Assembly (NCBI RefSeq): GCF_038397775.1
Contig: NZ_CP151650.1
Location: forward strand, 5,146,001 to 5,210,000
Direction of reading: 5' to 3'
Length of the DNA stretch: 64,000 nucleotides
Origin: Pseudomonas sp. RC10
GTDB lineage: Bacteria > Pseudomonadota > Gammaproteobacteria > Pseudomonadales > Pseudomonadaceae
The notes under the pieces were generated by a model that made no database searches, had not been told where the DNA came from, and was given only the letters and a program-made list of their open reading frames with translations. Below, piece after piece: positions 17,730 through 51,210 of this stretch; position 1 is the stretch's first letter; each line of letters begins with the position of its first letter. The translations under genes were made by a program, and so were the position numbers.

Positions 17730-18358
17730 TCGACTTCGACCTCGAATGGCGTCGGATCGCCACAGCCCACACGCACGACTTGCGGCTCGTCTTCGGACAG
17801 GTTGATGACCGTGGACGCCGAAATGCCGCCCTCGCCGCCGTCGATGATCAGATCGACGTGGTGTTCGAGGACTTGGCGCATCTCGTAGGGATCGCTCATG
17901 GGCAGGTCTTCACCCGGCATGATCAGGCTGACGCTCATCAACGGCTCGTTGAGCTCCTGCAACAGCGCCTGCGCAATGGGGTGCTGCGGCACGCGCAGGC
18001 CGATGGTGCGGCGCTTGGGGTGCAGCAACAGGCGCGGCACTTCGCGGGTCGCGCCGAGGATGAACGTGTACGGGCCGGGGGTGTGGGCTTTCAGCAGCCG
18101 GAACGCAGCGGTGTCCACCTTGGCGAAGAGCCCCAGTTGCGACAGGTCGCAGCACATCAGGGTGAAATTGTGCTTGTCGTCCAGATTGCGCAGGCGTCGA
18201 ATGCGGTCCAGCGCGCCTTTGTCGCCCATCTGGCAACCCAGCGCGTAGGACGAATCGGTCGGATACACCACCAGCCCGCCAGCCCGAATGATTTCCACGG
18301 CCTGTTTGATCAGGCGCGGTTGCGGGTTTTCCGGGTGGACCTGGAAAAATTGACTCAC
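17726..18358 (-). CDS. YciO/Sua5/YrdC family protein (L-threonylcarbamoyladenylate synthase type)
   Basis: The GTG at 18358 gives 210 residues starting SQFFQVHPENPQPRL, as in YciO. It has a GGAAGA ribosome site, whereas the ATG at 18394 would overlap the upstream gene by 23 bases. The core has VYPTDSSYALGCQM (about 28-41), LMCCDLSQLG and RRTIGLRVPQHPIAQALLQE, the dsRNA-binding-like YrdC fold. Sua5 and TsaC make threonylcarbamoyl-AMP for t6A in tRNA. YciO members share the fold, but their role in t6A is uncertain and TsaC is usually encoded elsewhere. It lies directly upstream of scpA. Confidence 0.85.
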   Translation of the reverse strand: MSQFFQVHPENPQPRLIKQAVEIIRAGGLVVYPTDSSYALGCQMGDKGALDRIRRLRNLDDKHNFTLMCCDLSQLGLFAKVDTAAFRLLKAHTPGPYTFILGATREVPRLLLHPKRRTIGLRVPQHPIAQALLQELNEPLMSVSLIMPGEDLPMSDPYEMRQVLEHHVDLIIDGGEGGISASTVINLSEDEPQVVRVGCGDPTPFEVEVE

Positions 18359-46696: not shown

Positions 46697-48040
46697 ATGT
46701 CTTCCGCTCACCGTTATTTTCATCCGGGCCGTCAGGTCGATCTTGAGTTCATGCCCGAGGTCGCCGGCGTCGCCGCGCAGGATTCATCCCGAGGCGCCCG
46801 AATCACCGTGTGGATCGCCGCCGCGCTGATCGTCACCGCGCTGGTCTGGGCTAAATTCGCGGTGCTCGAAGAAGTCACCATGGGCGAAGGCAAGGCGATT
46901 CCGTCGAGCAAGGTTCAGGTGATTCAGAACCTTGAAGGCGGCATCGTCACCGAGATTTTCGTCCGTGAAGGACAGATCGTGAACAAGGGCGACACCCTGC
47001 TGCGCCTGGATGACACGCGGTTTCTGTCGAACAAGGGCGAGAGCGAGGTCGATAAATACACGCTGATGGCGCAAGTGGATCGGCTGTCGGCGGAGTCCGA
47101 AGGGCGTCCGTTCAAGCCGTCGGCCGTGGTGCTGAGCAAGGCGCCACAAGTCGCGGCGGACGAGCAGGCGTTGTACGACTCGCGCCAGCGGCGTCTGGCC
47201 AGCGAGCAGCGCACGTTGCAGGAACAGTTGCGGCAGAAGATGCAGGAAGTCGCCGAGTTTCGCTCCAAGCAGGATCAGTACCGCAATCAGCTGGGGTTCA
47301 TTCAGCAGGAGCTGAGCATGTCGGCGCCCCTGGTGAACAGCGGCGCGGTGTCGCCGGTGGAAATCATCCGGCTCAAGGGCAAAGCGTCCGAGGCGCGCGG
47401 GCAAATGGACGCGACCTCGCTGGCGATTCCCCGGGCTGAAGCGGCGATCAATGAGATCAAGAGCAAGATCCAGGAATCCCTCGACAGCTTCCGCTCGGAC
47501 GCTACAAAAGACTTGAACGACAAACGCTCGGATCTGGCCAAAGCCAGCGCCACCAGCATCGCCATCGACGACCGCGTGACCCGCACCACCGTCACCTCTC
47601 CGGTCAAAGGCATCGTGAAAACGCTCAAGGTCAACACCATCGGCGGCGTGGTCCAGCCTGGCAGCGACATGGTGGAAATCGTGCCGCTGGACGACAACCT
47701 GCTGATCGAAGCCAAAGTCCGCCCGCAAGACGTCGCCTTCCTCCACCCCGGCCAGAAAGCCATGGTCAAGTTCAGCGCCTACGACTACACCATCTACGGC
47801 GGCCTGCCCGCCAAACTGGAACTCATCGGCGCCGACACCACCACCGACGACAAGGGCAACACCTTCTACCTGATCCAGGTCCGCACCGACCGCAACCACT
47901 TGGGCAGCAACGAGAAACCCCTGCTGATCATCCCCGGCATGGTCGCGACGGTGGACATCATCACGGGTGAGAAGAGCGTGATGGATTATTTGCTGAAGCC
48001 GGTGTTGAAGGCGCGGACTGAGGCGTTGCGGGAGCGGTGA
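46697..48040 (+). CDS. HlyD-family membrane fusion protein (LapC-like)
   Basis: The 447-residue protein has one membrane helix (about 36-58, TVWIAAALIVTALVWAKFAV), a lipoyl/barrel-sandwich part (VQVIQNLEGGIVTEIFVREG, then RTTVTSPVKGIVKTLKVNTI near 295-315) split by a long coiled coil (about 120-285), and a C-terminal beta domain. It bridges the ABC protein and the TolC channel. An AAGGAGCG ribosome site lies seven bases before ATG. The gene ends 62 bases before an IS3 element. Confidence 0.93.
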   Translation: MSSAHRYFHPGRQVDLEFMPEVAGVAAQDSSRGARITVWIAAALIVTALVWAKFAVLEEVTMGEGKAIPSSKVQVIQNLEGGIVTEIFVREGQIVNKGDTLLRLDDTRFLSNKGESEVDKYTLMAQVDRLSAESEGRPFKPSAVVLSKAPQVAADEQALYDSRQRRLASEQRTLQEQLRQKMQEVAEFRSKQDQYRNQLGFIQQELSMSAPLVNSGAVSPVEIIRLKGKASEARGQMDATSLAIPRAEAAINEIKSKIQESLDSFRSDATKDLNDKRSDLAKASATSIAIDDRVTRTTVTSPVKGIVKTLKVNTIGGVVQPGSDMVEIVPLDDNLLIEAKVRPQDVAFLHPGQKAMVKFSAYDYTIYGGLPAKLELIGADTTTDDKGNTFYLIQVRTDRNHLGSNEKPLLIIPGMVATVDIITGEKSVMDYLLKPVLKARTEALRER

Positions 48041-48149
48041 GCGCGGGGTGTCAGACAGACCGCCTTCGCTGCCGTCGTAACCTCCGGCGTCTCCCACAGG
48101 ATGAACTGCCCCCAAGAAGTTGGACACCCATCCAACCCCTGGGGGATCT

Positions 48150-48662
48150 ATGATCAAGTACACCGAGCAGTTCAAGCTCACGGCGGTCACCGCCTACCTG
48201 AACGGCACCAACGGCTTCCGAACAGTGGCCAGACATTTTGGCATCGACTTCAGTCTCCTTCGACGCTGGGTCGCCAGTTATCGGACTGGCAACAGCATCA
48301 AGCCAATGTCGTATGCGCGGCGGTACAGCGAGGATTTCAAGCGCCAAGTCTTGACCTACATGCATGAGCATCGACTTTCGCTACGCCAGACCGCTGCGCA
48401 TTTTGACCTTGGGCGGTCCTCCCTGATAGGCATCTGGCAACGCCAGTATTACAGTGACAGTCCTGTCACCCCTACTGCCATCCAGCCAGCCGACACGCCC
48501 ATGAAAATCAAACCCGCCAAACCCACCGACACCAACGATGCACAAAAGCCACGAGAGCAGTTGATGGCTGAACTTGAGTACATGCGCATGGAGAACGCTG
48601 TCCTAAAGGAGCTCAAGGCCCTGCGCGAGGAAAAGGAGCGAACACGGGGGAAAAAGTCCTGA
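48150..48662 (+). CDS. IS3 orfA (HTH protein)
   Basis: The 170-residue protein starts MIKYTEQFKLTAVTAYLNGT and holds two helix-turn-helix parts (about 1-50 and 60-105, the second around RQTAAHFDLGRSSLIGIWQRQ), then a Leu-zipper-like end (EQLMAELEYMRMENAVLKEL). It binds the terminal repeats and inhibits or helps transposition in the family. The last codons overlap a slippery site. Confidence 0.9.
   Translation: MIKYTEQFKLTAVTAYLNGTNGFRTVARHFGIDFSLLRRWVASYRTGNSIKPMSYARRYSEDFKRQVLTYMHEHRLSLRQTAAHFDLGRSSLIGIWQRQYYSDSPVTPTAIQPADTPMKIKPAKPTDTNDAQKPREQLMAELEYMRMENAVLKELKALREEKERTRGKKS
48650..48656 (+). other. Probable -1 ribosomal frameshift site
   Basis: The heptamer GAAAAAG lies in the orfA frame as GGG AAA AAG. 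A slip of -1 at A AAG leads into the orfB frame, which is open from there (GEKVLIVRKLK). The fused product OrfAB is the active transposase in IS3 elements. Confidence 0.68.
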
Positions 48663-48691
48663 TCGTCCGCAAACTCAAGCACCGATTCCCA

Positions 48692-49498
48692 TTGCCCGAC
48701 CTCCTTGAGCTGGTCGGGCTGGCACGCAGCACCTTCTATTACCAGGTCAAGGCTGAGCAGAAACCGGACCGGCATGCGGCGCTCAAGGAACGGGTGCAGC
48801 AGGAATATCACAAGCAGAGAGGGCTGTATGGCTATCGGCGTATTGCGCTTGCGCTCAGAAAGGAAGGAACGCTGGTCAACAAGAAGGTCATCGAACGGCT
48901 GATGGCCGAACAGGGTTTGCAATCGGTCGTACGGCCCAAGAAATACCGTTCCTACCGGGGGACTGTTGGCAAAATCGCCGCGAACCTGCTGGAGCGTAAT
49001 TTTCATGCACCCCGGCCAAAACAGAAGTGGGTAACCGACGTCACCGAGTTCAAAGTGGGTCAGCAGAAGCTCTACTTGTCTCCTGTGATGGATTTGTACA
49101 ACGGCGAAATCATCGCGTACGAAACAGCCAGTCGGCCTTACTACGAATTGGTGGGGAACATGCTCGACAAGGCGTTGGCTTGCTTGGGAGACGCGCCCAA
49201 ACTGGTCGTTCATTCGGACCAGGGGTGGCACTACCAACAGCCACGCTATCGCCACGCACTCAGCGAAAAAGGCGTGAAGCAGAGCATGTCCCGCAAAGGC
49301 AATTGCCTGGATAATGCGGCGATGGAGAGTTTTTTCGGCACGCTGAAGTCAGAGTTTTTCTACCTGAAGCGTTTCGAGAGTGTGGAAGAATTGAAGGTCG
49401 GCCTGGATGAGTACATTCATTACTACAACCATGACCGCATCAAGCTGAGGCTCAATGGCATGAGTCCTGTTGAATACAGGACTCAGGCTGCGGCGTAA
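48692..49498 (+). CDS. IS3 orfB (DDE transposase)
   Basis: The 268-residue frame is open from further upstream and is probably made as OrfAB. It starts PDLLELVGLARSTFYYQVKA and has an HTH_21 region (YGYRRIALALRKEG). The catalytic DDE triad sits in WVTDVTEFKVGQQKLYLSPV, VHSDQGWHYQ and NAAMESFFGTLKSEFF. No separate start for orfB is convincing; the TTG at 48692 is only the first possible codon. It is intact. Confidence 0.9.
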   Translation: MPDLLELVGLARSTFYYQVKAEQKPDRHAALKERVQQEYHKQRGLYGYRRIALALRKEGTLVNKKVIERLMAEQGLQSVVRPKKYRSYRGTVGKIAANLLERNFHAPRPKQKWVTDVTEFKVGQQKLYLSPVMDLYNGEIIAYETASRPYYELVGNMLDKALACLGDAPKLVVHSDQGWHYQQPRYRHALSEKGVKQSMSRKGNCLDNAAMESFFGTLKSEFFYLKRFESVEELKVGLDEYIHYYNHDRIKLRLNGMSPVEYRTQAAA

Positions 49499-49636
49499 AC
49501 TGTCCAACTTTTGGGGGGCAGTTCAGGATTGGCGAAACCCTGGACGCTCGCGGCTGGCACCTGAGCGTTGTTGATTCTGGCAGAGGGCTGCGGGACTGAC
49601 TGGCACGGTCCAGGCTCTTGATTCTGGCCGAAGGCC

Positions 49637-49762
49637 GTAGGAGCTGGCTTGCCTGCGATCTGTTGCGAAGCGACAGCAGAATCAGAGACCTCTGTTGTAT
49701 CTGACACACTGTCATCCAATTTTGCGACTGCTGCGCAGCCGATCGCAGGCAAGCCAGCTCCT
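49637..49762. repeat. REP-like inverted pair that is the IS110 target
   Basis: AGGAGCTGGCTTGCCTGCGATC (start near 49639) faces GATCGCAGGCAAGCCAGCTCCT, ending at 49762 where the IS110 element begins. The usual continuation ACGGCCTTCGGCCAGAATCA of such REPs reappears only after the element (50989 onward, as ACGCCTTCGGCAGAATCA). Confidence 0.78.
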
Positions 49763-49814
49763 TGTATCTCGACTCTGGCGTTTCATCGCGCCATAGTTCT
49801 CGACTGATCATCGA

Positions 49815-49960
49815 GGGAGAGCCGGGAAGCTGTTCAGCTCCTAAGGCCTCAGAGCTTACAAAGTAGATAGAGCTCCGGTTCTCCAACCTCACTCGAAAAG
49901 TCCGAACGGTATCCAGTGCGCGCCTTCGGCGTGAGCACGCATGTACAAGGCAGGACCGGG
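49815..49960 (+). ncRNA. Predicted IS110 bridge RNA
   Basis: Two stem-loops are readable. The first has a GGAGAGCCGG/CCGGTTCTCC stem (49816-49825/49875-49884). Inside lie CAGCTCCT (49835-49842), identical to the target's left side (49755-49762), and GTAG (49863-49866), complementary to the core and first right bases (CTAC, 50987-50990). The second has a short stem GTCC/GGAC (49900-49903/49953-49956). Inside lie ACGGTATC (49906-49913), identical to the element's right end (50980-50987), and TACAAG (49944-49949), complementary to its left end (CTTGTA, 49761-49766). Exact RNA ends are not known. Confidence 0.75.
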
Positions 49961-49999
49961 TGACGCGATGATCGTGTGCAATCGACTCTGGAGAGCGCC

Positions 50000-50971
50000 A
50001 TGTCTGCTTTTGTTGGCATCGATATCGCCAAAAACTCATTTGATATCGCCACCCCGCTGGATAACGGGAAGTTCAGGACCAAAGCCAGGCTGGCCAATAA
50101 TCCCAAGGGTTATCAGGTGCTGCTCGACTGGCTTACCACCCACTCCGAGCCCCATGCCTGGGTCGTGATGGAAGCCACCAGCGTCTACCACCAGGGCGTT
50201 GCTGATTGCCTTCACGCTCACGGATACCGGGTGTGCATCGTCAACCCTGCGATCCTCCACCAGTACGGCAAGGATGAGCTGCGCCGGGTCAAAACCGACA
50301 AGGCCGATGCAAAGCTGATCGCCCGCTATGCGCAAGACAAGCACACCAGACTGCGCGAGTGGGTGCCGGAGCCCGCGCCACGTCGGCGCTTGCGCGCGTT
50401 GGTGCGTCGACTGGAAGATTTGCAGGAAATTCAGCAGATGGAAAGCAATCGTCTGGATGTCGCCGAAGACAAGGTCAAAGCGTCGATCGAGTCGGTGATC
50501 AGCCACGTCAAGCAACAGATCGACGAGACCAGGAAAGCGATCAAAGACAATATTGACGACGATCCTGACCTGCGCCAGAAGCGCGATCTGATCGTGACCA
50601 TCGACGGGCTGGGGGATACGACCGCAGCGCTGATCCTGGCCGAACTCGGCGACCCATTGGATTACAAGGGCCCCAAATCTATCGTTGCCTTTGCGGGCCT
50701 GGACCCACGTTGTGCTAGCTCGGGAGAGTCGGTAGGCCCGACCCATATATCCAAAACCGGCTCGAAAAGGCTGCGCGCCGGGCTTTACATGCCAGGCATG
50801 GCTGGCCTAAAGCACAACGCGGTGTTGCGAGAGCTAAAGACCCGGATGCGCGCCAATGGGAAAGCCCCAAAAGAGATCATCTGTGCAGCAATGCGAAAGC
50901 TGCTGCATCTGGTCTATGGCGTGCTGAAATCGGGCAAGCCGTTCGACGCAGAAATTGCGCTTGCCCGGTGA
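50000..50971 (+). CDS. IS110-family transposase (DEDD recombinase)
   Basis: The ATG at 50000 gives 323 residues. The RuvC-like DEDD domain shows FVGIDIAKNSFDIA (D at about 7), VVMEATSVYHQGVADCL (E) and KTDKADAKLIARYAQDKHTR (two D). A coiled-coil middle and the C-terminal Tnp_20 domain follow (VTIDGLGDTTAALILAELGD, then FAGLDPRCASSGESVGPTHI with the catalytic Ser). The protein uses a bridge RNA to join donor and target DNA in this family. It is intact. Confidence 0.93.
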   Translation: MSAFVGIDIAKNSFDIATPLDNGKFRTKARLANNPKGYQVLLDWLTTHSEPHAWVVMEATSVYHQGVADCLHAHGYRVCIVNPAILHQYGKDELRRVKTDKADAKLIARYAQDKHTRLREWVPEPAPRRRLRALVRRLEDLQEIQQMESNRLDVAEDKVKASIESVISHVKQQIDETRKAIKDNIDDDPDLRQKRDLIVTIDGLGDTTAALILAELGDPLDYKGPKSIVAFAGLDPRCASSGESVGPTHISKTGSKRLRAGLYMPGMAGLKHNAVLRELKTRMRANGKAPKEIICAAMRKLLHLVYGVLKSGKPFDAEIALAR

Positions 50972-51100
50972 TGGGCAAGACGGTATCTACGCCTTCGGCA
51001 GAATCAAAAGCCTGGACCGCGCCAGACCTACGCCTTCGGCCAGAATTAAAGGCCCGGAACGCACCTTTCCCACAGCGTCCGGCAGAATCAAAAGCGGCCA

Positions 51101-51185
51101 GATGTCAGCCGCGAGCATTGCGGACGCCGCCAATCCTGTGGGAGACGCCGGAGGTTACGACGGCAGCGAAGGCGGTCGAGCTGAC
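51101..51185. repeat. Intact copy of the palindromic repeat split by the IS3
   Basis: The segment around AATCCTGTGGGAGACGCCGG on the plus strand is the reverse complement of the sequence flanking the IS3 element (48061-48101 joined to 49526-49560). It is therefore an uninterrupted inverted copy of the same repeat. Confidence 0.78.
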
Positions 51186-51210
51186 ACACCTCACGCAGCC
51201 CAAACACCGA

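Follow-up and report, generated by a model that had tools for sequence, protein, structure and literature searches.

An IS621-type IS110 insertion sequence in a Pseudomonas REP bears a conserved bridge RNA whose guides fit its insertion sites and co-vary with targets among relatives

The insertion sequence and its recombinase

The window, the stretch of 64,000 nucleotides from Pseudomonas sp. RC10 that was analyzed here, contains an insertion sequence of the IS110 family and the IS621 kind, which, at a probability that we put near 95%, is mobilized in circular form, guided by a bridge RNA that it encodes itself. Its boundaries, its guides, their fit to the occupied sites, the conserved RNA structure, the co-change of guide and target, and one co-change of guide and donor were observed in the sequences compared below. 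The host genome is a single contig of 6.71 Mb, and the features that delimit the element are as follows.

49761-50988, plus strand: IS110-family (IS621 kind) insertion sequence, both CT cores included, delimited by end-to-end matches across loci and present in seven genome copies
50000-50971, plus strand: IS110 recombinase of 323 aa, the sole gene of the element, assigned by Pfam, solved relatives and catalytic residues
49741-49762, plus strand: left half of the interrupted REP, with the left target CCAGCTCCT ending at the CT core 49761-49762
50987-50990, plus strand: CT core of the right end together with the right target CTAC, the latter present at all seven genome copies
49637-49652, minus strand: intact, uninterrupted target GCAAGCCAGCTCCTAC in the neighbouring mirror-image REP (G000:C1:5195637-5195652)

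Bases 1 to 1228 of 49761-50988 were aligned exactly in 36 of 46 loci (own copies counted), the other 10 being loci without one or both ends in the match, and each of the 36 full-length loci was bounded by CTTGTAT on the left and GGTATCT on the right; the element boundary is firm. The net insertion amounts to 1,226 bp, the interval 49761-50988 counting both CT cores. When the flanks of the element were joined, 57 of 61 positions (2 gaps) agreed with the mirror-image REP located about 110 bp leftward.

The recombinase was found to possess the Pfam domains DEDD_Tnp_IS110 (RuvC-like) and Transposase_20 with the conserved Ser, as is characteristic of the IS110 family, and its residues D8, E58, D100, D103 and S241 corresponded to D11, E60, D102, D105 and S241 of IS621. 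The transposases of IS621 and ISCro4 were the only solved relatives detected by sequence (E = 3e-64 and 3e-63, respectively). The left non-coding end is long (239 bp separate the first core and the ATG) and the right one short (15 bp separate the stop codon and the last core), in conformity with the layout of the IS110 group. Searches beyond chromosomes yielded no close copy of the element in the plasmid records (megablast) and no relative in the phage records (distant blastn); at the protein level 2,835 plasmid records matched, all with less than 60% identity.

The intergenic surroundings are themselves repetitive. After removal of two insertion sequences, 48038-49762 and 50989-51197 form a long imperfect palindrome, whose arms, in a search for repeats of at least 20 bases, were 48038-48102/51133-51197, 49524-49584/51078-51138, 49600-49626/50999-51025 and 49639-49682/49719-49762. 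Across the genome, the segment 49524-49760 was matched 64 times, and many of these matches surround REP sites. The other insertion sequence, at about 48099-49523, has HTH and rve open reading frames, terminal inverted repeats TGAACTGCCCCC.../...GGGGGGCAGTTCA and, as judged by eye, a likely 3-bp duplication GGA; we take it to be of the IS3 type.

Guides of the bridge RNA

In the non-coding region upstream of the recombinase gene, the first-pass annotation had placed a bridge RNA with four guide segments, the LTG and RTG in a target loop and the LDG and RDG in a donor loop. The segments as defined in the present analysis are listed below.

49796-49979, plus strand: part of the bridge RNA that binds target and donor, as matched by the covariance model (181.8 bits)
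49834-49842, plus strand: LTG UCAGCUCCU, 9 nt, matching the target at 8 of 9 positions
49863-49866, plus strand: RTG GUAG, complementary to CTAC at 50987-50990
49867-49868, plus strand: AU after the RTG, handshake bases fitting donor positions 6-7 (AT)
49906-49913, plus strand: LDG ACGGUAUC, 8 nt, equal to the right end
49941-49949, plus strand: RDG AU-GU-ACAAG, pairing discontiguously with CTTGTAT

The four segments lay where the annotation had put them, and their ordered pattern occurred once. The claimed complementarity of GTAG (49863-49866) to CTAC (50987-50990) held, as did the claimed identity of ACGGTATC in the donor loop (49906-49913) to the right end (50980-50987), and the two other readings required refinement. 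CAGCTCCT at 49835-49842 is indeed equal to 49755-49762, ending in the CT core 49761-49762, but the LTG proper is a 9-mer, the first base of which is mismatched (U versus C). Likewise, the complementarity of TACAAG (49944-49949) to CTTGTA (49761-49766) holds, but as a contiguous RDG this hexamer was set aside, since the relatives keep only AU..[A/G]CAAG while the left-out bases vary; the conserved pairing is thus the discontiguous form of IS621, AU--ACAAG, and the T of TACAAG is incidental. The guide layout being the same as in the IS621 structure paper, where the RDG comprises two plus four or five bases, two being left out, and is given as A157-U158/C162-G165 (PMC11208158), the segment was read as AU-(GU)-ACAAG. 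The overall arrangement, with the LTG and RTG in the first loop, the LDG and RDG in the second, and guides that include the core and would pair to the bottom and top strands, was that of IS621. According to the model of handshake bases following the guides that was described in the same paper (PMC11208158), the first base after the RDG (G) fits target position 7 (C), and the second base does not fit.

Among 20,000 dinucleotide shuffles of 49771-49999, none reproduced the four segments in order, even with loose spacing. The LTG 8-mer appeared in 157 of the shuffles and the LDG 8-mer in 41, both together in 1, whereas TACAAG appeared in 547 and GTAG in 11,263, so that GTAG alone is uninformative.

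Conserved structure of the RNA

As no Rfam family was detected at the gathering score anywhere in the window, a covariance model was built from relatives, using an alignment of 25 RNAs (23 distinct); the score of 181.8 bits given above is to be read with the window copy itself among these 25 sequences. The stems enclosing each guide pair, which had been proposed by eye, were backed by covariation, and the consensus fold leaves the LTG and RTG wholly unpaired; it draws three LDG bases paired with three RDG bases. In the covariance check that had been suggested for this region, the consensus structure formed pairs in 97.6% of cells versus 28-44% when slid along the alignment, a comparison that favours the unslid structure in that it was taken from the same alignment on which the pairs were counted. 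Changes on both sides were observed in 15 of its 36 pairs, and the covariation score was reached by none of 500 shuffles, the pair-type count, one of five measures, being reached by 16. The fold of the single sequence (z = -1.92, with 8 of 200 shuffles equally good) was not decisive, and the covariation over many sequences is the stronger evidence; this fold also predicted a stem-loop at about 49772-49796, ahead of the part matched by the model.

This model (R1), for which IS621 had not been used, detected the IS621 left end, located on an E. coli plasmid, with 43.9 bits and an E-value of 2.7e-12 (E-values are rough), and by this match the RNA is homologous in both sequence and structure to the bridge RNA of IS621. 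A relative from Xanthomonas, outside the model-building set, scored 127 bits with the same RNA model. Elsewhere in the window, a weak match to the bridge RNA model at 17749-17860 on the minus strand (11.4 bits, E = 0.033) is probably due to chance.

Proposed mechanism of transposition

Transcription, the RNA-protein complex, the circle and the chemistry are proposed here by analogy with IS621. Excision would join the right end to the left end around one CT, and the resulting circle junction would read across ACGGTATCTTGTAT and may form a weak promoter of the sigma-70 type. In the RNA from the left end, the donor loop would hold the circle junction ACGGTAT-CT-TGTAT and the target loop the REP site CCAGCTC-CT-AC, upon which the recombinase would exchange strands at the two CT cores, and the circle would be inserted without further duplication.

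50961-50988, plus strand: right-end half of the proposed junction promoter, comprising TTGCCC (50961-50966) and TATCT (50984-50988), which T at 49763 would complete in the circle

The candidate, TTGCCC-17-TATCTT, agrees with 8 of 12 consensus bases and is a weak match; the promoter scan of the linear insert revealed none at 9 of 12. TTGNNN was present 17 bases ahead of TATCTT in 22 of 22 distinct elements, a conservation that may be due to coding, since the TTG lies within recombinase codons.

Seven genomic copies and REP occupancy

The host genome contains seven copies of the element, all with open frames, which show no difference over 1,224 bp and whose flanks differ outside the REP region. 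The first-pass annotation had called the element a REP-targeting IS110 with its own guide set, and in agreement with this, all seven copies lie in a REP at GCAAGCC[A/G]GCTC-CT-AC and fit the guides, with one LTG mismatch over nine positions at six copies and two at the remaining one. The annotation had stated that this reading would fail if sister copies occupied sites that the target loop does not fit, or if the element ended elsewhere; both were looked for, and neither was found. The absence of a single difference among the seven copies implies recent movement, and from these sequences we can only infer that the element is active. The same copies bear on the notion that the element is a dead relic, which still carries its guides and whose copies multiplied through segmental duplication or REP-to-REP recombination: it lies in recombination-prone repeats, but the seven sites differ outside the REP region while the interiors remain identical and open, and the catalytic residues are kept, so that we consider such a relic very improbable.

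The REP occurs in two forms, of which the LTG spells the A form, the G form adding one LTG mismatch. Occupied sites made up 6 of 20 A-form sites (14 empty) versus 1 of 88 G-form sites (87 empty, 101 empty in all), a bias (Fisher p = 1.3e-4) of which the base itself is not isolated as the cause, since the forms may differ in wider context; the CGCCAGCAAGCC context, for instance, is shared by L006, an occupied A-form site, and L007, the occupied G-form site. GCAAGCCRGCTCCT occurred 112 times in the genome versus 0 for its reversed control. The bare 10-mer CAGCTCCTAC gave 27 empty occurrences, 14 of them in REP context, versus 69 for its reversed control and is therefore not enriched as such. If movement under guidance of the bridge RNA is the true model, the target CCAGCTCCTAC should be favoured over CCGGCTCCTAC.

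A second IS110-type element was noticed in the same genome in six copies (L054-L059, e.g., G000:C1:399313-399693), with a 325-aa open frame and a common stretch of 1,189 bp, either end of which consists in part of REP sequence. Each of the six sits in the REP described above, in its G form, at a CT located three bases leftward (GCAAGCCGG-CT ... CT-CC[C/T]ACA). The donor junction of this element is also AT-CT-TGTAT, and GAATCT and TACAAG upstream are possible donor guides. A division of the REP forms between the two elements was considered and found unconvincing, because the G form already accounts for 88 of the 108 sites, and the target guides of the second element are not clearly readable.

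Co-change of guides and targets among relatives

To the genomic copies were added relatives from the genus of the window and from Stutzerimonas, giving 22 distinct full elements, the one in the window included. When each LTG was compared with its own left target, 152 of 154 non-core positions agreed. For the 14 distinct LTGs the agreement was 97 of 98, compared with 100,000 permutations, ignoring relatedness, that averaged 51.6 and reached 85 at most. The set was then widened by sister copies, partial loci and one Xanthomonas relative to 57 distinct insertions with 18 distinct LTGs. Guides were obtained from 59 of 66 loci (nothing from L041-L044, L046, L060 and L080), 15 further loci (L017, L018 and L047-L059) having been left out as repeats of others or as the second element; the 59 rows represent 57 insertions (L069 = L032, L072 = L035), in 51 of which the right end was readable.

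In this wider set, the LTG had no mismatch over nine positions in 44 insertions, one in 12 and two in 1. The right target was CTAC in 49 of the 51 readable insertions, the deviants being L021 (CTGC) and L073 (CTAT), and the LDG equalled its own right end in all 51. The RTG was GTAG in 50 of 57 insertions, and AU followed it in every one of the 57. Seven copies of a 72%-identical element in P. batumici UCM B-321 (L008-L013 and L015) have the RTG ATAG at CTAC sites. In L022 and L025/L065 the last three LTG bases are CCG or CCA rather than CCT, which leaves the core T unpaired by the LTG, yet their sites have the CT core. Locus L074 shows two right-end-like matches 149 bp apart, with the same eight bases after each.

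Individual elements illustrate the co-change. L034, with the LTG ACAGCTGCT and the target ACAGCTG-CT, differs in two LTG bases from L020, L021, L023 and L028, which carry GCAGCTCCT, the proteins being 85-90% identical; its base after the RDG is C, facing G in the target. L031, whose target base is also G, keeps G after the RDG, which does not fit. The elements of genomes G182 and G348, whose LTG is CCGGCTCCT, occupy the REP of the window in its G form, and the changed right end of the G182 element, ACGATATC, is matched by its own LDG ACGATATC.

These observations bear on an alternative in which the recombinase itself reads the REP, as a sequence or as a hairpin, the matches at the left end being leftovers or a regulatory 5'-UTR structure as proposed for ISPpu9. 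A preference of several different ISs for REPs has been described (PMC1525189), as have regulatory small RNAs of ISPpu9, one of them from the region upstream of tnp (PMC8450116). Recognition by the protein is, however, difficult to reconcile with recombinases of 85-90% identity having different targets that track the LTG (L034 versus L020, L021, L023 and L028), with a bias between A and G forms that follows the LTG base within a single genome, and with the demonstration that IS621 is guided by RNA (PMC11208160), and we rate it as very improbable.

Host REP types and evolution of the guides

Three REP patterns drawn from the insertion sites were counted in 19 genomes, which we picked from the 54 with a match; the patterns counted were those fitting the elements of 11 of these genomes. 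GCAAGCCRGCTCCTAC occurred 101, 334, 243 and 47 times in its four fitting genomes, 0-8 times in 13 others and 82 times each in two others; CKKCGGCAGCTCCTAC 762, 273, 40 and 48 times in its four fitting genomes and 0 times in the 15 others; and AAGGCCGCTCCTAC 69, 346 and 428 times in its three fitting genomes, the rest giving 6 in one, 1 in another and 0 in fourteen. Some presence was expected, since each pattern had been derived from insertions in the genomes that it fits, whereas their near-absence elsewhere was not. In the three classes, guide and host repeat are thus largely associated, one class having two exceptions.

The counts are compatible both with guides that evolved in place and with elements that settled where they fit, and do not show which. 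We see an even chance that, in this Pseudomonas clade of IS621-type elements, the LTG, and at least once a handshake base, was rewritten to the REP of the host lineage while the RTG, the donor guides and the donor ends stayed nearly frozen. Sorting, by which elements with fixed guides persist only where the REP suits them, concerns evolution only and is compatible with RNA-guided movement; its odds appear to us equally balanced. LTGs cluster on the recombinase tree, and G164 and G078 each contain 82 sites of a REP form unsuited to the guides of their own elements, both of which favour sorting, while the two LTG bases and the base adjoining the donor guide in which L034 departs from its 85-90%-identical GCAGCTCCT relatives argue against it. 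If rewriting to the host REP did occur, REPs and IS110 elements would constitute a lock-and-key pair evolving in step and readable from genomes alone, and discrimination of single bases could be measured from occupied versus empty REPs.

Comparison with known systems

RNA guidance has been published (PMC11208160, PMC11208158, PMC11187229), as have target motifs agreeing with guides over 16 guide sets (PMC11208160) and a mention of natural reprogramming (PMC11187229), and Pseudomonas ISs targeting REPs, ISPpu9 and ISPpu10 included, have been in print since 2006 (PMC1525189). In the titles and abstract openings among the literature matches listed, neither a Pseudomonas retargeting series nor a count of occupied versus empty REPs was found. 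The element is therefore of a kind already known from IS621 and from ISPpu9/ISPpu10, and what is added here is a natural retargeting series and an occupancy test within one genome. Seven identical copies in a genome that also offers 101 empty REP sites, in two forms, provide a gauge of guide specificity in the wild, and the 18 natural LTGs, which occur over 57 insertions with related proteins, represent bridge RNAs that were retargeted by natural evolution. The series, which includes one changed handshake base and one changed donor guide, should help in understanding bridge recombinases in Pseudomonas and in engineering them.

The closest system, IS621 of E. coli, shares with the present element, as it is described, an LTG of 9, an RTG of 4 and an LDG of 8 nucleotides and a discontiguous RDG with two bases left out (PMC11208158), in addition to the CT core, the REP target, the two guide loops and the catalytic residues (PMC11208160, PMC11208158). 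The two differ in their proteins (about 39% identity), in the host, which is Pseudomonas for the element of the window, and in their guides (LTG AUCGGGCCU versus UCAGCUCCU; LDG ACAGUAUC versus ACGGUAUC), the different LTG meaning that a different REP is targeted. ISPpu9 and ISPpu10 of P. putida KT2440 resemble it by their descriptions in that all copies lie in REPs with a 2-bp direct repeat (PMC1525189, PMC8450116); the repeat AG of ISPpu9 is CT on the other strand, and ISPpu9 is likewise described as a member of the IS110/IS492 family with seven copies (PMC8450116). The published interpretation of ISPpu9 centres on two small RNAs as regulators of tnp (PMC8450116). The seekRNA systems of ISPa11 and the IS1111 group are also RNA-guided DEDD transposases, and ISPa11 chooses REPs (PMC11187229); the IS1111 group is, however, described with sub-terminal inverted repeats of 11-13 bp, a reversed guide order and a non-coding region that follows tnp (PMC11187229), whereas the element of the window has its non-coding region upstream of the gene and its guides in the order of IS110.
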